Origin: Exobasidium rhododendri | Lineage: Eukaryota > Basidiomycota > Exobasidiomycetes > Exobasidiales > Exobasidiaceae | Reading direction: 5' to 3' | Length of the DNA: 64,000 nucleotides | Assembly (NCBI GenBank): GCA_026210745.1 | Contig: CP110630.1 | Coordinates: forward strand, 3,534,001 to 3,598,000 | Shown: one piece after another, positions 19,740 through 39,258 of the stretch | Layout of the letters: every line of letters begins with the position of its first letter | Numbering within the stretch: the first letter of the stretch is position 1 | Position numbers and translations under genes: made by a program | The notes under the pieces: generated by a model | What the model saw: only the letters and a program-made list of their open reading frames with translations | Databases searched by the model: none | What the model was told of the DNA's origin: nothing

Positions 19740-20053
19740 CTTCTGCCTCTATCAGATCGCATGCTAAATGAATTTAAGACAAAAAGACATAGAGGTGGAA
19801 GAGCTGGCCGTGCGCTCTGGCACAGAATTAAGGCTCAATCCAAGCTCCCTTCTACATTGATGCCTTCATTGGTTCGCTCTGTTTTGTGGTCTGGGTCGAC
19901 ACGCTGATCACGGCATCGACAATACTGCAAGCTATTCGAGTGCAAAAAGCAAAGCTGTCAGAGATGCGAAGAAGCCCTATCAAGGCAGAGAGGACAACTC
20001 TGTATCCCTGGACTGGTATCAAGTCGTGATGGACTTGCTTCGAGCTGGCTACG
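19740..20053 (+). pseudogene. decayed copy of the 38-39 kb two-module gene
   Basis: Reading across frames gives LNEFKTKR, then YIDAFIGSLC, then RHADHGI, then AVRDAKKPYQGREDNSVSLD and VVMDLLRAGYG. The intact gene at 38152-39258 has LENDFKNQ, WIDALLLDMDC, RHSAHGI, AVRKAEKFFKGREDKSISLK and VVVDLLRAGYG in the same order. The frame changes between the YIDA and RHADHGI parts, and a block matching about seven residues (VSLAWII in the intact copy) is missing, so the copy is broken. It ends TACG followed by GTAAGC, exactly where both modules of the intact gene meet a phase-1 donor. No start codon or 5' part is recognisable. Confidence 0.7.
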
Positions 20054-20569
20054 GTAAGCCAAGTGTATGCTACTGCCAGTAATTATCACTCAATCTAATT
20101 CTTCCGTGCAGATTAGAAAGCGCGACTCCGGTCCAGTTTGGCTGATTCCGACAGAAGGTGTAGGCTCGTACGCGTCAGGGCGACGTGTTCCTATAGCTCA
20201 AAGACTCCCCAAATCGCAGGAAAGTACCCCCCCCCAAATGCGCAGCTCTGATGGCACTGATACCTTTCAGGTACGCTTTGCCGAGCACTCATACACTCCA
20301 TAGCTCGTATGCGAGCGTCGTTCCCACGCGCGTGCGAGTGTTGTGGCAATACACGAGCAGGGGATACGATTGGATCCGATGTATATGTGCCGCAAGTGGA
20401 AGACAGACGAATGATACTGATCACGATACGTCTCCCTCAAGTGACATGTGTATCGCGTGTGAAGGAGAGCCATGATCGGAGCTGTGAGCGGCTTTAAAGT
20501 TGGAGTGACTGTACGGAAGATCACTAGTAAAGGAAGCAGAATTCTAAGAAGTTGATGTGCTACGATTTG

Positions 20570-21670
20570 CTGAGGACGGCTTCGGAAAACACCGCCCTTT
20601 TAAGAAAGAGGGACCGTCAGAGAACCGACACCCTCCTTGTCGACCGAAGCAAAGATCGTAGGTGCTAGTGTGAATGTTGTGATTGATTCCATGTCGTGGC
20701 AAATGGGCAGAAGAGAACTTTCCCGTTCCAAGACCATCGCACTTTTCACAATAAAGAGCCGGGGCCTCCATTCCCACGTTAAGCCGGGTCCTCTCTTTCG
20801 CTAGAATATCTATCTGTACTAAGCGACACAGATGAGGTCTATGACGTGGCGAATGGGCAGAGGACTTACTTGTTTCCTTTGTATCATCGCACTTTCCAAA
20901 GAAGGAGGCCCCTGCTCTTTCCCTCCAAGTAATGAGGTGTCGCTCTTTCAAAAAAGGAGGCCCCTGCCCTTCCCTCGAGGTAGTGAGGTGCCGTTTCTTG
21001 CTCTTACCGGCATAGTTGTCGAGACAATACACATTACCAAGTAGTACTGTGAACGCCTCTACCTCATCTATCGATCGTATTCGACATGTCTGACACCGTC
21101 AAGGTACCAAAAAATCAATGCGGTCATCGTTCACTCCTTTCACTTGCTATTCTCAAGCCGTGAGAAGGTCTCTAGCTGAAAGTTGCATGGCCAGTCCCTC
21201 CTGAAAGCGGACCGAGTAGGGTGTGAATTTTCCTCGCCTTGTTTCTTCTGTTCCACAGTCTCTGATCTTTCTGGATTATGCATCTTTGTGAATGATCAGT
21301 GTAGTCCTGTGGTGCCGATGAATAAGTGAAAGGCCGTTTTGGTGTATCGTTGTTACGTGTATCTTTCGCGGCCCATTCGCGCCCTCATCTCGATTAAAGT
21401 TTCACATTATACGGTGCCGTGACAAGGCGGTCTAATCTGATACGTTGCCGCAAGTCTCCGACTGAAAGGGTGAGGGGTGCGGGGCGAGCAAAGAAAAGGG
21501 GAACAATGATGGGATCGAGAATAGCAAGCAAGTATCACTACAACATTTTTAGTAATTATAGGCGAGTGAGAACTCCGCTTTTACAAAAAGAGCAGGGACC
21601 TCTTTTTTCATGCGACGGACAAAGGAGAACTAATTACTCTGCCTGTTTGCCGCATCGTTTACTTGAATGA
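20570..21670. repeat. diverged direct and inverted repeat family
   Basis: Copy A (20691-20775) and copy B (20841-20920) share an ATGWCGTGGCRAATGGGCAG start and an ATCGCACTTTYCA block, about 150 bp apart. A third copy, about 21580-21660, is inverted: its reverse complement gives CGGCAAACAGGCAGAG, then CTCCTTTGTC and a GAGGTCCCTGCTCTTTT end matching copy B. Inside copy B a 52-bp unit is doubled: AAGGAGGCCCCTGC occurs at 20902 and at 20954. The minus strand stays open across copies A and B (20544-21032, 162 codons). Its translation repeats a GxxFxxKCDxxxxTxxxSSAHxPRH-like pattern, also seen in weaker form in the inverted copy. This may be a remnant of a repeat-coding gene or a mobile element; no terminal repeats or transposase were seen. 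Confidence 0.65.
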
Positions 21671-22037
21671 ACATCGACCAGAGTGGGCTGCTACACTTGG
21701 CGAGAGCAATGGAGAGCAGAAGTCTCGTTTGTAGAATTGCAGTGGACAAAGGTGAGAGTCTTCCTCTCCTTAATTGCCGTGTCACTTACTTGACGGCCTC
21801 TCGTAATCGAATGTTAATCGTAGAGACGCCTTTGTTCGACTGCAGGTCCGCTTCACAAGAGGAAGAGACGGATAAAGCTGTAAAACAGTATATCGCAAGT
21901 ATGTTCGTTTAACATCCACTCTTGTTGTCTTGCAGCGCCTGTCCTTGACTCAATACTTGCAACCTAGCATTTCCTTCGATACACACTCCATCTGTAACTC
22001 CTTCCTCTCTATAATCTTTGCACACGAAAGAGCTAAG

Positions 22038-25000
22038 ATGATAATTGAGAAGAGACCGGAGGTGGCAAGGCGAGGTGTCCGTATCATAGCGCCTAGAAGA
22101 GTCAGCGTGTGAGTCGCTCTCTGTGCTCAGTTGAATTGAGATCTTTCCATTATTGACATCTCATCTCCTTAGGGATGGCTATCTCTACAATCTGTCAGAT
22201 TCGGGAGAAGACTCACACGACAGTGAAGATGAACGACGCGACATGCGCTTCATTGCTGAACAAAAGAGATTAGGAAGAACCATTGAAAGACGTCCGCGCA
22301 TATGGAAAGGTGGCCATGATGCGTATTTATCTTCCAAAGATCTGAAGCTCAAGACTGCTATCCCTGAAGTTGCGGAATTCTTCGTAGGACCCATCAAAGT
22401 TAAAGGAAGGGAGAAAGGATGGACGACGTCGACTTTTAGATATATCCTAGTCCTAGGTCCTCTTATATCTGATGTTCGTACATTTTCTGATTTCCGTACA
22501 TTCTCTGATAGTCAACTTTACCGGCTCAACGACCCAGAAGTCAGAGGAAATAATGGTTCGTCGACTACCAGGCTTAAGATTTTTAGCTTGTGGTACATAC
22601 GATGTCGGCTATCTTCTGCTTCTGAAGCTGCAGAGAAAATCGGCGAGGTGGAATCTGCAGATGAGACTTGCGAAGATCTTCCTCAGATCGAGGATGAAGG
22701 TGAAACGCTGCATGACTTTCAGGCCATGGCTGAAAAGGACTACAGCATCATCAGGGCTGCCGTAGAAGCAGAACGTGCACTACGGATTAAAGGACCCGGA
22801 GAGGAGCCGCAGTCAGACGACGACGATAGTGACGAAGTGACAGGTGACAGGTGAGTAAAGTCATTCATCTGACCATATTATGCCTAAATATGCTGAAGCT
22901 TTGTTCCCTTGTCAGATTTCACTCCAAGTCTGGCATGTTTTCTGATGTGATGAATCGCACGCTAGGAGAACTAAAGCCAAAGAAGACGGTGAAGGAGGCG
23001 GCGAGATATTTGAAAATCTCGCCCTTATTGCACAAACGGTTACAGGCCATCCCAAACGACGATGCTCGCCGAGCTATGCTCTCAGACATACACACAAATC
23101 GAAGGGACACGGCTCCTTCAAGGGGCACACTGTCCGGTGAAGACGGTCTGGTTCGTGGAGCCATCGAGGCCATCACCGCATACCTTGTGGATAGTCGGCT
23201 TCCAACAACATGCGACTTGATGAAAGAGCTTGCAAAAGACAGATTTGGAGTCGTCTGCAATTTTCAAAAGGGTCTTACGACGGACGGGAGAAAGATCTTG
23301 GATTCTTTGCTGAGAGGCGCTCTACTCGGTTCTGACTTTGACAATGAGGAGAATTTGCTAGATCTCGTATCTGCCGACGAGGGCGGTATCTATGTCGGTT
23401 TTGGTGTGGATAAGGATGGCCAAATCGAGTGGCTGTACGTTGGGAGGAGCTGCGGTCTGCTCTTTCGTAATGCATCACATCAAGCGTACATTCACACACC
23501 AGTAAGCTCACTCTACATGCCATGCTACCACTACCGGAATGCAAAGAAGACATTAGAGGATGGAGGCAAGGTGTTCTACAAGCAAGTCTCTTCATCTCGC
23601 AAGGCCGCTGATCAATTCTTCTGGGAGACAGTGTGGTGCTTTCTTTTGGGCACGTTTCAGCTGGGTAGTAAAGGTGAGGCTCTTTTGCGATGTCGACACG
23701 ATGCTGGTCTCCCTGCATTTAGCTTTATTGGCGTGAATAGTACCGCCTGTTACCAAGCGAGTAATTGGAATGCAATCTTCAATCTGTGGAACCATTCAAA
23801 GGATTACGTCAATCAACTTCAATCTTTGTTGGTAAAGATCTACCAAATTCAAATTGAGGAGAATCTTGCTAACTCCGTCCTCCAGGTAGACATACTGGAG
23901 AGCCAGTTTGACAGGGCACAGATAGCAAAAGATGACTTAGCTAAACAGCTTGCTACCTTGAAGAAGAATTATCTCGATGAAACAAGAAGGCGCATCCTGG
24001 CTGGCACATTAAAGCTTCATCTCGCGATCTTTGTTCGACCTTCTGGTGCTATACAAGCTCTCGCCACCAATTTCCACAACCTTGTGCTTCCGACAGCTGC
24101 TTTACGAAAGCTCTTCCCGGAAATGACGCCGAAAACTGCAGGTTCAGAGCTTGTCACGGTCAAGTTGAACATCTCCGACGAGGCAGATCCTTCCTCAGAC
24201 ATCTTTCTCTGTCGGACGGAGCAATACTTTCATTTGCTAAAGGGTGTCTCTCTCCTTGTCACCAGCAGCAAAGGAATCGAGAGCTATTGGCAGCTTACGA
24301 GGTCAATCTGCAATACGACGTCAAAAGGCAAGCTCGTAGAGTATCTCGAGCCCCTTCTAGATGACAAGAGACGTAGCCTGGCCGCCCAATGTGACAAGAC
24401 GGCTTTATACAGGGAGCTACCTCTCCACATTCGTATGTTAATGAGAGGGGAACTACACTTGTCGCGGATGAAACATCTTGGCACCTCATCGTTCAAGATA
24501 CCCGGCAAGAAGCAAGTGTCGTGCTGTATGCCCTACAATACTGGAGTAGAGGAGCTACATAGCAAATTCCCTCGCTGTGGAGTCTATCTTGCAGTCAATT
24601 TTGATAGCGAATACGGAGTCTATCGGGATATAGCTCAGACAAGGCCAGACTGGACGTCAGAGGAGGTGGAGTTCAGCCAGAAGACTGGAATCAAGATATT
24701 CGGCTTCGATGGTGTGTGGAAGGACATCGAGACACCTTTTCCTTCATTCGGTAGCAGTCAGATGTGGTCACTCGTGAAGGAAGCCTGGAACGCGCTTCAC
24801 CCGCATCGTAAGCCATTGCCAGTCGAACATGACTTGATGAGCAACTTGCGAGACAGCTTGAATGTCACTGACAAGCAGCCTTTGCGTTCAGCCCATATTC
24901 AAGAAGTGGAAAACAGGCTCATCACCAGAGTATTTCCGCAGCAAAAGGAGATATATTACCCGTCGCAAGCACCCGCTGTACCTGGAGAATTCGCCATGTT

Positions 25001-25839
25001 CAAACCGACTCTAGGTATGATAAAGAAAGCCTATTGCAACGAATGGAACAGATGGACTTTCAAAGTGATGGTGTACACTGGTCAGACTGTCCGGCTGCCG
25101 GCTTCACTCGCCGATCGGTGGGGACTTCATGGCTCAGACAAGGAGCATCATTTATGCGCGATTCGGATAAATGGGTACAAGAGGAGCACAGAGGATGTAG
25201 AGGTGTGGTGCAGACTCTTGGATGGAGAGGAATGGACCGAACTTCGATCCGAATTTAAGGAGGACGTCTCTTCGTCGACAAGGGGATTCAATCATATATT
25301 CGTTTCATTCCTCGAAAAGAATCGTGAAAGAGATACATACTCCTCGAGATCAGAAGAGGAGCTGAAGGCGCGACTGGCAAGGTGAGTCGCTTCTCGAGGT
25401 AGCCTTTTCATCTGTGGCTGTAGAAAGCTGAATAGACGGTAATTCAGGAACTACTCGGACTTCTTCCGCGGCAGTGTCGAGATGGCAAACAGTAAGTGTG
25501 ATGTGTATATAGAGCGTCTCGAGAGTCCACTGACATGTCTTCTCTACAGTCTACTCTGGCTTGATATCCTGGCTAGGTCCTCAGAGTTTTCATATTCTGA
25601 GAATTGAAGCGAATAGAAGCGTGGTCGAGAAAGTCTTGGCTAAAATGGGTGTTGTCTATAATGCGCTAGTTGCAGAGAAGCCAGATTCGCCTCCTTCGAC
25701 GGAGCCACCCAGAGCAGGGGGCAGCAATATCAACCGTCAAATCAGTTCGTCAGCAGCGGTGGCCCAATCGACAGTCAATACAAAGAAACATCGCTTGAGC
25801 GATGGAGCGAGTATCCCCGAAAAGCATCGTAGATTATAA
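22038..25839 (+). CDS. large unknown protein with a GIY-YIG-like motif
   Basis: Five exons, 22038-22108, 22173-22850, 22916-25381, 25448-25491 and 25550-25839, join with consistent phase to give 1182 aa. The N-terminal 250 residues are acidic and Ser-rich (LSDSGEDSHDSEDERRD). Near residue 405 the sequence reads GGIYVGFGVDKDGQIEWLYV followed by GRSCGLLFRNASHQ. This matches the GIY, YIG and following Arg elements of GIY-YIG nucleases, and FFWETVW downstream could give the conserved Glu. A helical, coiled-coil-like segment follows (LQVDILESQFDRAQIAKDDL onward). The rest contains aromatic-rich blocks (CMPYNTGVEELHSKFPRCGV, WNALHPHRKPLPVEHDL) and a basic C-terminus. I do not recognise the family; no reverse transcriptase or transposase motif was found. 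Intact exons argue that it is expressed. Confidence 0.7.
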
Positions 25840-26648
25840 TTCTCGTCGGTAAATGTACAATCAGAGCAGTGTAGCGGCAATGAAGAAAGATGGGTACTTG
25901 TCCAAATCCCCCGTGTGACTAATTAGTAAAGCTTACGTGCGATGCCAATGAACGAAATTTGGTCACCAAGGGAAGTGAACTTACTTGATTCGTGATGGTA
26001 TTCCGGCTATTCTTCGTCTAGTTGCTTAGACTCGTAACTAGTCAGTCGTCCTTTCGTAGTAGATAGAAAAAAAGACGATCAAACGATGGAACAGCATATG
26101 AGTCCTGAGACTGTGAAAGGATATTTATAACTTTCCTTTTCGCCCAGACCCACAAATACCACAAGCCAAGCGTAGATAAACTTTCGCAATCCGCTTTCTG
26201 TGTATATGTGCTACTGCCTCAATCAAGTCGCTTGCCGAATAATGATCCGAAGGCGAAGTGACGAAAGAGGGTGAGAGAGCGACCAATGCAGCTCTGGCGC
26301 CTGTGAGAGGGAACCGTGTCAGCTCTGGCCCCTGGAAAGGATCGAAAGCTCAATCGATTATGCTAATAAAAGAATAGGAGAACATTCTTGGAGGTCTCAC
26401 ATACGTCCGTAATTTAGCTCAGTGCGCATACGCAAAGTGCAGGAAATCAGCGCCTTGTCAAATTGGCGGTCTTCCTATCTGAAGCTACGCATACATAAGT
26501 AGGGCACGATAGATACTTGCAGATCAAACGGCGTCGGTCTCCTTCCCTTCACTTCTCACTCAATACTCTCATCCTCCTGCTCCTTAAAATCGTACATCGC
26601 ATTTCTCTTCTGACATTTTTATGCGAAAGTCAATCGACGAGAGCGGCT
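25840..26648. other. intergenic, no gene recognised
   Basis: About 0.8 kb of comparatively AT-rich DNA between the GIY-YIG-like gene and the tRNA region. Open frames are short and without composition typical of the neighbours. Confidence 0.45.
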
Positions 26649-26720
26649 AACGCCTGTACCAAAATGTCGAATTTCGACCGATGGACAACGCCTGTACCAA
26701 AGTGTCGAATTTCAGACCAA
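26649..26720. repeat. 38-bp tandem duplication
   Basis: Two near-identical units begin AACGCCTGTACCAAA at 26649 and again at 26687, each followed by a TGTCGAATTTC block. The second unit abuts the oligo-A tract that is the Pol III terminator of the adjacent tRNA gene on the other strand. Confidence 0.8.
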
Positions 26721-26728
26721 AAAAAAGT

Positions 26729-26832
26729 TGGAGAATTGGGGAATCGAACCCCAGACTTCTTGCATTCTTCGCCACAGGCCAGAGTTTCCTCTAACATGCT
26801 AAGCAAACACGATACCACTTCGTCAATTCCCC
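26729..26832 (-). tRNA. tRNA-Ala(AGC) with a 32-nt intron
   Basis: Read on the minus strand, 26832-26826 (GGGGAAT) pairs with 26736-26730 (ATTCTCC), including a G3:U70 pair, the alanine identity element. The D arm is ACGA/TCGT around AGTGGTA. The anticodon stem is TTTGC/GCAAG around loop TTAGCA+T, giving anticodon AGC. The T arm is TGGGG/CCCCA around TTCGATT, forming a perfect B box, and the variable loop is AAGTC. Stems close only if 26796-26765 is removed as an intron at the standard 37/38 position; the intron edge could shift by a base. The discriminator is A at 26729. A T8 terminator follows on the minus strand (26726-26719). Confidence 0.93.
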
Positions 26833-33306: not shown

Positions 33307-35643
33307 TCAGCTGACAGTAGGCAGGGTCTTGTACCAGTCAATGACGCGGGCATCGGCCATGACCTGTCCGCGGGAAAAGAGTCGAAGGGGAGATTCATGT
33401 CAGTCGGTAATACATTTTGGCCCTGCCACACTCCCCTTCCTCAAGCACCAACGCACCTTGTGGGGATTGAAGTTGAGAACCTGAAGACCTTGCTTCGACA
33501 CCGCTCGAGACAGGGCGACATAAGCCTGCCCCTTTTCAAACACTCTACCTAGATCGATCTTGACGATCGGTATCGTTTGACCTTGTGACTTATGGATCGA
33601 CATTGCCCAGGCAAGGATCAACGGGACCTGCGTTCGGCTGGCCACGATCTCACCGTTCGGTTGTTCGTTCTTCCAGATCTCTGGCTCTGCTACTTGTGTC
33701 CTGAATCGCCCTCCTGTGATCAGGAATCGGACGATCGGGTACTTTGTCGGTTCCACCTTTTCAGGGGAAGAGGAGCGACTTCGTGCCAGTCTCTCCCTCT
33801 TTTCATCCTTTCTTATCTGTTCTTCCAGCTCATCCATTTCCGCCTGCCTCCTATCGTCCAGGCCGCCGGCCCCTCCACCCTGTAGATCCCGACGCTGGGC
33901 GCCACTGCTTCCATTCACCGTGTCCCAGTACCTTCCGTTGAGCTTTGCGTAAATTTCCTCTTCCGTCGTCTTGATCGGGTCAATCTCGTCCCAGTCGATC
34001 CCACAATATTGTCCTTTCAGAAAGTCTTGCCGTGAGAGGAAAGTTAGGACGGTTCCGATACTTCCATTGACCAGCGTCTCATCTATGTTCTTGATTAGCA
34101 TGACTTGACAACCTGCTTTCAGTCGCAGCTTGGCGGGCGCCATGAAGTTGTCCAGCATCTTAGTTCTTTGTTCTCCTTGGATGGTCCCGCCGTCGAGAGA
34201 GTCAAAAGTGTGCGTCTGTTGCGTGATCTTGACTAGCTGCTGTGCGTTGGCTCGCTCTACTTCTTGTCGTGTCGGGTATAGCGCCGTGGCTGGCATCTTT
34301 GACTTCAGCTCCATCTCACTTTGTCCCGTCAACGACTGGAAGACTCGAATTGACTGCTGGCTCAAGGTACCAAATCGCATCTCATTGAGCATGTTGACAA
34401 AGTCTGGAACGGGAGTCAAGATTCTTCCCTCTCAGCGCGATGAACGAATTGACCACCACCCCACAATCAAGAGGCACACTCACCTGGGTCCTTTTGGCGA
34501 AACACCTGCGTAAGACAGATCCTGTCCTCGACGACGGAATTCCAGCAAGTAGCATCAAAGGCATAACGGGTCGACTTGGAGAACTTGTTGACAGGAGGCA
34601 GCTGAAAGAAGTCACCAGTCATGACGACCTGAATGCCTCCGAACGGCTTGGGCGATTTTCGAAGCAGCTGACCACACTTGTCCAGCTTGTCCAAGAAATC
34701 AGGATCCACCATGGAAACTGTGAAGTGACGTGGACATCCCGCGGTAAGCTCATCGCCAAAGGCAGATCAAGAAACTGACTACAGACACACCTTCATCAAT
34801 GACCAGCGCTACTGTCCTCATCCACCGACTGGCTCCCTTTCGATTCTTCTTGATCTTGCTCACGAGAGCCTCGACGGGCTCGATACCCAATCCACATCCT
34901 GCAAAGGAATGCAATGTGACCCCACCAATGTTACACGCCGCAATACCTGTAGAGGCTGTCACTGCTATTGCATCAGGCTTTGTCGAATACTTCTTACGAA
35001 GGTCTTTGATGATCTCTCGAAGCACCACAGACTTTCCCGTTCCTGCACTCCCGGTGAAGAACATATTCTTGCCACCTTGAACTACTCGCTCATGGACGAC
35101 CCGCTGCTCTTTGGAGAGAAAGACTTTGTTGATGGAGGTCTTTGATCCTCCAAATGTATTCATGCCGGACTTGTACAGTTGCGGTGCCTTGACCCCATCC
35201 GCTTTCAATTGCGCTGCGCTCTTTGTGAAGTTGTGCTTGGTTCCTGATTCGCTCGTACCAAATGCCGACGGCAATTTCCTCTTGCTGCCGGATGTCTCTT
35301 GACTATCGATGCTGCTGCCTGTAGGTATGACCAAAGAAAGACATCAGCATCGTCGACATCTCCCTCTGTATCATAAGAGCTCACCCAGCTCTGTGTCACT
35401 GATAGCATGATGCCTCGGATCGAACTTCTTCTCCGGAGAAGGCGTGCCCAAATCGATGGCATTTCCGGCCTCCTTCCCAGAATTTGCATTCAGCCTGCTC
35501 CCTCCAACCTCAAGCAGTAGGGCGCTGTTGAACTTCTTCTTCGCATTCATATTGCCAAGGATGGGAGCAACTTCCAATCCGCTCAAGCTGTCTTGATTAC
35601 CACTCCAAGACCTCTTCAGGTTGCTCAAGCCTGATTGCGACAT
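33307..35643 (-). CDS. PIF1: PIF1-family 5'-3' DNA helicase
   Basis: Five exons, 35643-35385, 35318-34791, 34717-34484, 34403-33457 and 33363-33307, join in phase to give 674 aa. Superfamily 1B helicase motifs are complete: [36 protein letters not shown] (Walker A, ~177), [20 protein letters not shown] (Ia), [19 protein letters not shown] (II), [13 protein letters not shown] (III), [10 protein letters not shown] (IV), [19 protein letters not shown] (V region), and [28 protein letters not shown] (VI). The Asp-Glu of motif II is created across the second intron. PIF1 helicases resolve G-quadruplexes and act in nuclear replication and mitochondrial DNA upkeep. No strong mitochondrial presequence is visible at Met-1 ([13 protein letters not shown]). 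Charged insertions lie between motifs V and VI. It is convergent with PTA1. Confidence 0.95.
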
Positions 35644-38151: not shown

Positions 38152-39258
38152 TCACACACACCTCTCGGTCTCCCTGACGTTTAACGTCTTAGGAGGATCT
38201 ACACGAACTGCATATGGAAAGTTGCGTGAATAGCATTCTGCCGTATCGCCGTTTGCAGTACTTACCGTAGCCAGCTCGAAGCAGATCCACCACGACTATA
38301 CACCATTCTTCGGATATAGAGGTGTCCTCTCTGCCTTCAAAGAACTTCTTTGCTTTTTCGATGGCGGCGAGCCATTCCTGTGAAGGGAACTCAGCTCTCT
38401 TGATGCCGTGAGCAGAATGCCGATCAAGGTCACAGAGCTTGACAAATGACGGAGGACATCCACCCACACAGTCCATGTCTAAGAGAAGTGCATCGATCCA
38501 GTTCGATACACCTCTGTACAGTCGAGAAGTAGTATCTTCATCATACACATCGAATGCTTTATGCAGCCGTTGACATGTCCGCTGCAAGCGTTTCTCTTTC
38601 TTGACATTGCTCGAGAAGTGAAGAGTGAGGTAGCTGTGAAGTGACTGAGCGTAGCTAGGCTCCATTCCTGTACAGCCGAAGGTGAGGTGAAATCTAATGT
38701 CACTACCACCCGGCGCCACTCACCGCAGAGAGTCTGAATCAAATCCACCACAACTTTACACCATTTTAGGGAGATGCTCTTGTCCTCTCTGCCTTTGAAG
38801 AACTTCTCCGCCTTTCTGACGGCTATGATCCATGCTAACGAAACATATTCAGTCTTCTTGATGCTGTAATCAGCATTTTGACTCGGATCGCAGAGCGGGG
38901 CAAGCCACAAGGGACATTCACCGATGCATTGTATTTGGAGAAGAATACTGTTAATGGTGCTTGACACTTGTCGGGGGTCTATTCCTTCAAGATACTTCCA
39001 TTGATTTTTGAAATCGTTCTCAAGGCAAATGCATATTCCGAGGGTCTTATCATGCTCGGTGTTGATTGAGAAGCGGCTGGTGAGGTATTCGAAGAGTGAC
39101 TGAGCTCTGGCCGCTTCCATCCTGGGATTAGGACTATCACTCTCTCTGCCATCGTGCTGTGAAGATGATCGTGTGGTCACAAGAGGACTCGGCGTTGGCT
39201 GGTGGAGAGACGAGCTGAGCGCGAGCTCATCGTCCAGAGGTGGGCGTCGATTGTCCAT
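38152..39258 (-). CDS. unknown protein made of two copies of a ~134-residue module
   Basis: Three exons, 39258-38724, 38667-38266 and 38207-38152, join in phase to give about 330 aa. After a Ser/Pro-rich start (residues 1-46), module 1 begins EAARAQSLFEYLTSRFSIN and ends AEKFFKGREDKSISLKWCKV. Module 2 begins EPSYAQSLHSYLTLHFSSN and ends KAKKFFEGREDTSISEEWCI then VVVDLLRAGYG. Shared landmarks are AQSL-YLT-F-S-N, a C-G-CP segment, LCD and FF-GRED-SIS. Each module ends at a phase-1 donor after a Gly codon, so exon 2 (402 nt, phase 1-1) looks like a duplicated exon. No membrane segment or catalytic motif is seen, and I do not recognise the domain. The 3' end is uncertain: a longer last exon from about 38089 is possible. 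A broken third copy lies at 19.7-20.1 kb. Confidence 0.65.

Follow-up and report, generated by a model that had tools for sequence, protein, structure and literature searches.

A likely GIY-YIG-type DNA endonuclease in a strongly diverged three-copy gene family of Exobasidium rhododendri

The gene at positions 22038-25839 (+ strand) of a 64,000-nucleotide stretch of the Exobasidium rhododendri CBS 101457 genome (contig C1, 3534001-3598000; hereafter the window, from whose first nucleotide positions are counted) likely encodes a GIY-YIG-type DNA endonuclease, being a host gene and one of three strongly diverged copies, a reading to which we give a probability of about 0.68. E. rhododendri is a basidiomycete of the Exobasidiales with a genome of 17.6 Mb in four contigs, and a 2026 paper (PMC13010171) counts CBS101457 among several Exobasidium species with sequenced genomes and describes it as parasitic on Rhododendron. 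A preliminary description, made by a model from the DNA letters, had proposed a GIY-YIG nuclease for this gene. The proposal now gains from the residues and spacing kept in two paralogues and from a profile that points to the same protein segment, but it lacks a curated family match and a confident fold.

The GIY-YIG superfamily is characterized in PMC1564403 by a domain whose N-terminal part contains short GIY and YIG motifs, with a central arginine and a glutamate in its C-terminal part, on a fold of three strands with three helices around them. In the window protein GGIYVGF begins at residue 406 and is followed by LYVGRS and then by an arginine, as had been reported near residue 405. All three copies keep GG-x-Y-x14-YVGR-x6-R-x3-H and then a glutamate and an asparagine, with GG[ICL]Y and YVG in 3/3 copies and 15 residues between the tyrosines, a spacing longer than is usual for GIY-YIG domains. 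As a reference we used 29 PF01541 domains, picked by the Y[ITVC]G string and not by the residues after it. In 29/29 of them and in 3/3 copies an arginine follows the YIG tyrosine at +10, which upholds the YVG-to-arginine spacing first described, and the residue at +14 is histidine in 23/29 references (tyrosine in five, glutamate in one) and in all three copies. The two tyrosines, the glycine, the arginine, the glutamate and the asparagine of the motif are invariant in 3/3 copies. The chance that the four residues named beforehand (Tyr, Tyr, Gly, Arg) would all fall among the 32/145 invariant columns is 0.002, decreasing to 7.8e-5 for all six motif columns, of which the glutamate and the asparagine were selected after the alignment had been seen. 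In shuffled long open reading frames (ORFs) of the window the pattern YIG-x7-R-x3-[HY] has an expectation of 0.007 in 12,564 residues, from which we estimate about two chance occurrences per whole fungal proteome; a single instance is unremarkable, but keeping it in three diverged copies is remarkable. Judged from these alignments, the motif is beyond chance. Glu487 comes after a predicted strand, and local profile alignments never extend to it.

The other copies were retrieved by a search of the genome with exon 3, which returned two more loci, both on contig C3; the third copy, used as query, finds the other two in turn. L006 (C3:4646033-4648547) is 38% and 33% identical to the window gene in two pieces and L007 (C3:278215-280719) 28% identical in a local match; over the whole alignment their identities to the window protein are 38% and 24%, and over the motif domain only, 56% and 32%. 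The gene, which had been called orphan-looking, thus has two paralogues in its own genome. L006 consists of two adjacent open homologous pieces that match in different frames, with the break at L006 4110-4119 (around C3:4647616), and therefore it is either frameshifted (a pseudogene) or affected by an assembly indel. L007 is open across 835 codons and is annotated as CBS101457_005149 (743 residues) with a differing gene model. Identity by codon position (1/2/3) is 0.52/0.56/0.34 between the window gene and L006 and 0.37/0.49/0.30 between the window gene and L007, which argues for selection on protein sequence. Furthermore, intron 2 occupies the same codon and phase in 3/3 copies, inside an arginine codon (AG/A, AG/A and AG/G), thus fitting the duplication of an intron-bearing gene and not retrotransposition.

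Profile comparisons (HH-suite) led to the same segment. The three-copy domain profile scored 22.8 with the PF01541 set alone and 23.1 when T5orf172 was added to it, values that were reached by 0/200 and 0/1000 column shuffles (maxima in the 1000: 21.8 and 20.2); the score against the untrimmed PF01541 set was 20.7. In global mode the PF01541 score was reached by 3/200 shuffles and the combined-set score by none of 200. Among 40 sliding windows on the whole alignment, exactly the eight with the YVGR-to-Arg stretch scored 21.8-24.0, the remaining 32 staying at or below 14.1. The T5orf172 profile alone gave no signal, 36/200 shuffles being as good. The profile search against GIY-YIG families suggested at the outset gave a signal with the three-copy profile, which beats 1000/1000 shuffles, and none with Pfam matching or with T5orf172. 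We regard this profile evidence for a GIY-YIG relationship as support, not proof.

Several results weigh against the assignment. Single copies scored 17.9, 18.7 and 17.0 (window, L006, L007) against PF01541, where the best of 215 decoy pieces reached 18.2, 17.8 and 17.5. With the combined set the scores were 21.6, 14.6 and 16.8, the best decoy reaching 16.7 and at least eight decoys lying above 14.6, and HH-suite probabilities were at most 21%. No significant family match was found in PHROGs, in PADLOC, in NCBIfam, where window exon 3 was the only query, or in Pfam, where the queries were the window protein, its NCBI model, the two paralogues and the isolated domain. Neither PF01541 nor PF10544 was listed at E values up to 10, whether the whole proteins or the isolated domain were scanned, searches of the own genome with these two families do not list the three loci, and PDB profile searches returned nothing relevant and no GIY-YIG chain. 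Single-sequence AlphaFold2 and Foldseek results were uninformative. The fold model is too poor to decide: the structure prediction that had been recommended for the domain has a predicted local distance difference test (pLDDT) score of 46.6 (low), an order of elements partly compatible with GIY-YIG and an unformed helix 1. Against a viral library, 3 of the 50 listed Foldseek rows named intron-endonuclease or GIY-YIG, all with E of 0.26 or more. In favour of the assignment, a structural second look placed GIY-YIG enzymes in 5 of 36 listed entries, with low Z (1yd2, 1yd6, 9u75, 9u7u and 2wsh), though among unrelated entries of similar or higher Z. The titles of 1yd2 and 1yd6 name GIY-YIG, and 9u75 and 9u7u are taken by us as GIY-YIG enzymes. 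For 2wsh (T4 EndoII) this membership is given in PMC1564403.

A few faint matches were discarded. In Pfam these were TFIIF-beta (E 0.094) and a model of coiled-coil type, and in NCBIfam BtuF and a macrolide phosphotransferase, all below the cut-offs of their families; BtuF chains also turned up in the PDB search (E 0.026 or more).

Taken at face value, the missing curated match, the low-confidence models, single members hardly above decoys and a PDB profile search devoid of GIY-YIG chains would suit a coincidental motif in a lineage-specific family of another fold, whose invariant residues are structural or serve some other activity. We consider this unlikely, though it is the strongest competitor of the endonuclease reading, given that the motif positions have not varied among the three copies despite their strong divergence, that YVG-x7-R-x3-H has the same register as in the reference domains, and that 0/1000 shuffles attain the profile score.

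A mobile-element derivation of the gene had also been put forward. In its favour, GIY-YIG domains are common in mobile elements, according to PMC1564403, six PF01541 matches fall on the small contig C4, which is probably mitochondrial, and part of another gene is copied close by. A captured mobile-element nuclease or its remnant (a homing endonuclease, Penelope-like or transposon gene) is nonetheless very improbable. Pfam scans of the window protein yielded no family above cut-off, whether of reverse transcriptases, of transposases or of DNA-binding modules from homing endonucleases, in agreement with the absence of reverse transcriptase, transposase and LAGLIDADG motifs noted from the start. 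There are no inverted repeats of at least 14 nt in 21300-26700, and the paralogue regions gave four and one short inverted pairs, none at terminal-repeat positions. Only three copies were found, 28-38% identical and none of them recent, with the window DNA giving a single genome match, and all three have an intron position in common. Their neighbours are ordinary (an SNF2 gene and symplekin here; genes with a dynamin-type GED region and for a ubiquinol-cytochrome c chaperone beside the paralogues), and the partial copy close by is that of a different local gene. Inverted repeats, copy number and flanking repeats having all been examined, the mobile-element idea was rejected. Least probable of all is a GIY-YIG fold without catalysis, acting as a DNA-binding or scaffold protein, for which the longer than usual spacings within the domain could be invoked but which is at odds with the retention of catalytic-type residues in 3/3 copies.

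For the favoured GIY-YIG-type endonuclease, DNA cleavage via Tyr409, Tyr424, Arg434 and Glu487 is predicted because the shared core keeps the signature residues of GIY-YIG enzymes. In UvrC and I-TevI a single DNA strand is cut with the help of one divalent metal, held by the glutamate, and of a water that a tyrosine activates. Similarly, residues about 400-530 would form the GIY-YIG fold. There the two tyrosines and the arginine would place the water and the phosphate and activate them, one divalent metal would be bound by Glu487, and the activated water would cut one strand of the DNA. The large C-terminal region kept in the three copies, to which no known family was matched in the Pfam scans and the PDB profile search, may recognise the DNA substrate or a partner, and the family itself would most likely have originated when a chromosomal gene with introns was duplicated in the ordinary way.

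The putative enzyme resembles PF01541-type domains such as the UvrC N-terminal domain and YhbQ-like proteins in GG-x-Y, YVG, the arginine at +10, the mostly conserved histidine at +14 and, tentatively, the later glutamate. It differs from them in the absence of a Pfam match, the 15 residues between the tyrosines, the 1182-residue eukaryotic protein and a C-terminal region with no known family match. T5orf172 (PF10544), a GIY-YIG-like domain that is also nuclear-encoded, occurs once in the same genome (C3:1960959-1961333), but its profile fits the three copies no better than shuffles and Pfam does not match it to them. A PF01541 match at C1:5294339-5294533 corresponds to an SLX1-like domain in what is presumably the SLX1 locus. 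SLX1, also with a eukaryotic nuclear GIY-YIG domain, is a small protein with that domain at its N-terminus and a zinc finger at its C-terminus, whereas the window protein has a central domain and no zinc-finger family match. The endonuclease of Penelope-like retroelements, described in PMC1564403, is likewise a eukaryotic protein with a GIY-YIG domain. In those elements a reverse transcriptase lies upstream of that domain, but no reverse transcriptase family is found in the window protein. Unlike orthodox GIY-YIG homing endonucleases, in which NUMOD-type DNA-binding modules follow the nuclease domain, it has no match to such a module in Pfam.

No relatives outside the genome were found in a search of 5.77 billion proteins, which returned only the gene itself or its paralogue and is blind near 28% identity: the window query did not list CBS101457_005149, and since the search with one copy missed the other, distant relatives at about 28% lie beyond its reach. 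Scans of bacterial and archaeal genomes (two short peptide patterns) and of viral contigs (two or six patterns per scan) revealed no relative, and no description of the family was found in open-licence PMC papers. Therefore, it is plausible from these searches, within that identity limit, that this is an accessory gene, as had been surmised. It is also likely that the family comprises nuclear, lineage-restricted GIY-YIG endonucleases, lineage-restricted meaning here that no closer relative was found by a protein search blind at about 28% identity. Its likely role would be that of a host nuclease of either DNA processing or DNA defence. It is tempting, and rather more speculative, to envisage a new nuclear GIY-YIG family below the reach of family profiles that arose within the Exobasidium lineage and has a giant C-terminal region for substrate recognition, its three versions, under selection and with intact catalytic residues, targeting the chromosomes of the fungus or invading DNA. 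To our knowledge eukaryotic nuclear GIY-YIG enzymes are few (SLX1, ankyrin-LEM proteins, T5orf172 proteins and Penelope elements). If this view holds, automatic annotation overlooks a set of GIY-YIG nucleases in eukaryotes, as these have drifted in sequence below the family profiles, and three copies in one small genome offer a direct handle for their study.

The intact, spliceable gene of the preliminary description was recovered: five exons joined through four GT-AG introns of 58-66 nt give 3549 nt with the stop and 1182 residues (Table 1). The NCBI model (CBS101457_001547, 1072 residues) stops with exon 3, its frame running into intron 3, and leaves out window positions 25382-25839 with the proposed exons 4 and 5. 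We favour the 1182-residue model, without certainty, because in L006 a splice donor occurs at the equivalent arginine codon and a weak LIHWLG counterpart lies downstream. The latter resembles the LISWLG of exon 5 (E 0.05 in a C-terminal-only search, right order, 26% identity), but an opposite-strand match scored slightly better (E 0.015). The public model, short of the last two proposed exons, would be corrected accordingly. The acidic N-terminus once ascribed to the protein is only partly borne out: residues 1-100 have a net charge of +4, and residues 101-300, with short acidic runs, of -8. An 18-bp tandem repeat (2.3 copies, window 22468-22509) inside exon 2 repeats the peptide RTFSD.

Table 1. 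Features of the putative endonuclease gene and the adjacent tRNA gene, in window positions
Feature	Position	Strand	Remarks
Exon 1 (start codon 22038)	22038..22108	+	Same start as NCBI model P0001
Exon 2, N-terminal region	22173..22850	+	Poorly conserved, short acidic runs
Intron 2	22851..22915	+	Splits Arg codon AG/A; same place in both paralogues
Exon 3	22916..25381	+	GIY-YIG-like domain, middle region and conserved C-terminal region
GIY-YIG-like domain	23325..23792	+	Alignment A2; 32 invariant of 145 gapless columns, three copies
GGIY	23382..23393	+	Tyr409, counterpart of GIY tyrosine
YVGR	23436..23447	+	Tyr424 and Gly426, counterparts of YIG
Arg434 and His438	23466..23480	+	At +10 and +14 from YVG tyrosine
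Glu487	23625..23627	+	Invariant; candidate metal-binding glutamate
Asn524	23736..23738	+	Invariant; candidate counterpart of GIY-YIG asparagine
C-terminal region	24390..25381	+	Conserved in three copies, 28 invariant columns
Exon 4	25448..25491	+	Not in NCBI model
Exon 5	25550..25839	+	Not in NCBI model; LISWLG segment, weak counterpart downstream in L006
tRNA-Ala(AGC)	26729-26832	-	Rfam tRNA 49.9 bits; 32-nt intron at position 37-38

The surroundings do not form the repeat-rich island that had been depicted. The stretch between the SNF2 gene and the putative endonuclease gene contains a GAA-rich tract at 18.1 kb, a 51-bp array of two units (20887-20990) and a 50-nt repeat in two copies 70% alike at 21617 and 21744; the 20 tandem-repeat rows, partly overlapping, are scattered across the whole window. 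The putative pseudogene on the left corresponds to a partial gene copy at 19861-20079, which shares 47% identity over 73 aligned columns with the translated 38192-38719 (- strand), but its relationship to the putative endonuclease gene was rejected, the copy belonging to another local gene (38.2-38.9 kb). That unnamed gene (38192-38882, - strand) contains two related stretches of about 70 residues each, and the partial copy at 19.9 kb, in the opposite orientation, matches it at 82% over 93 nt and 69% over 147 nt. The tRNA gene expected on the right is present, recognised by Rfam and not reported by ARAGORN in default mode. Other genes of the window are ordinary, encoding Tfb2, a DEAD_2 helicase, a polo-type kinase, an SNF2-RING protein, symplekin, a Pif1-type fragment and a kelch protein. 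An ORF at 33400-34431 (- strand), with Pif1 2B and UvrD-type helicase C-terminal matches, is a piece of a Pif1-type helicase.
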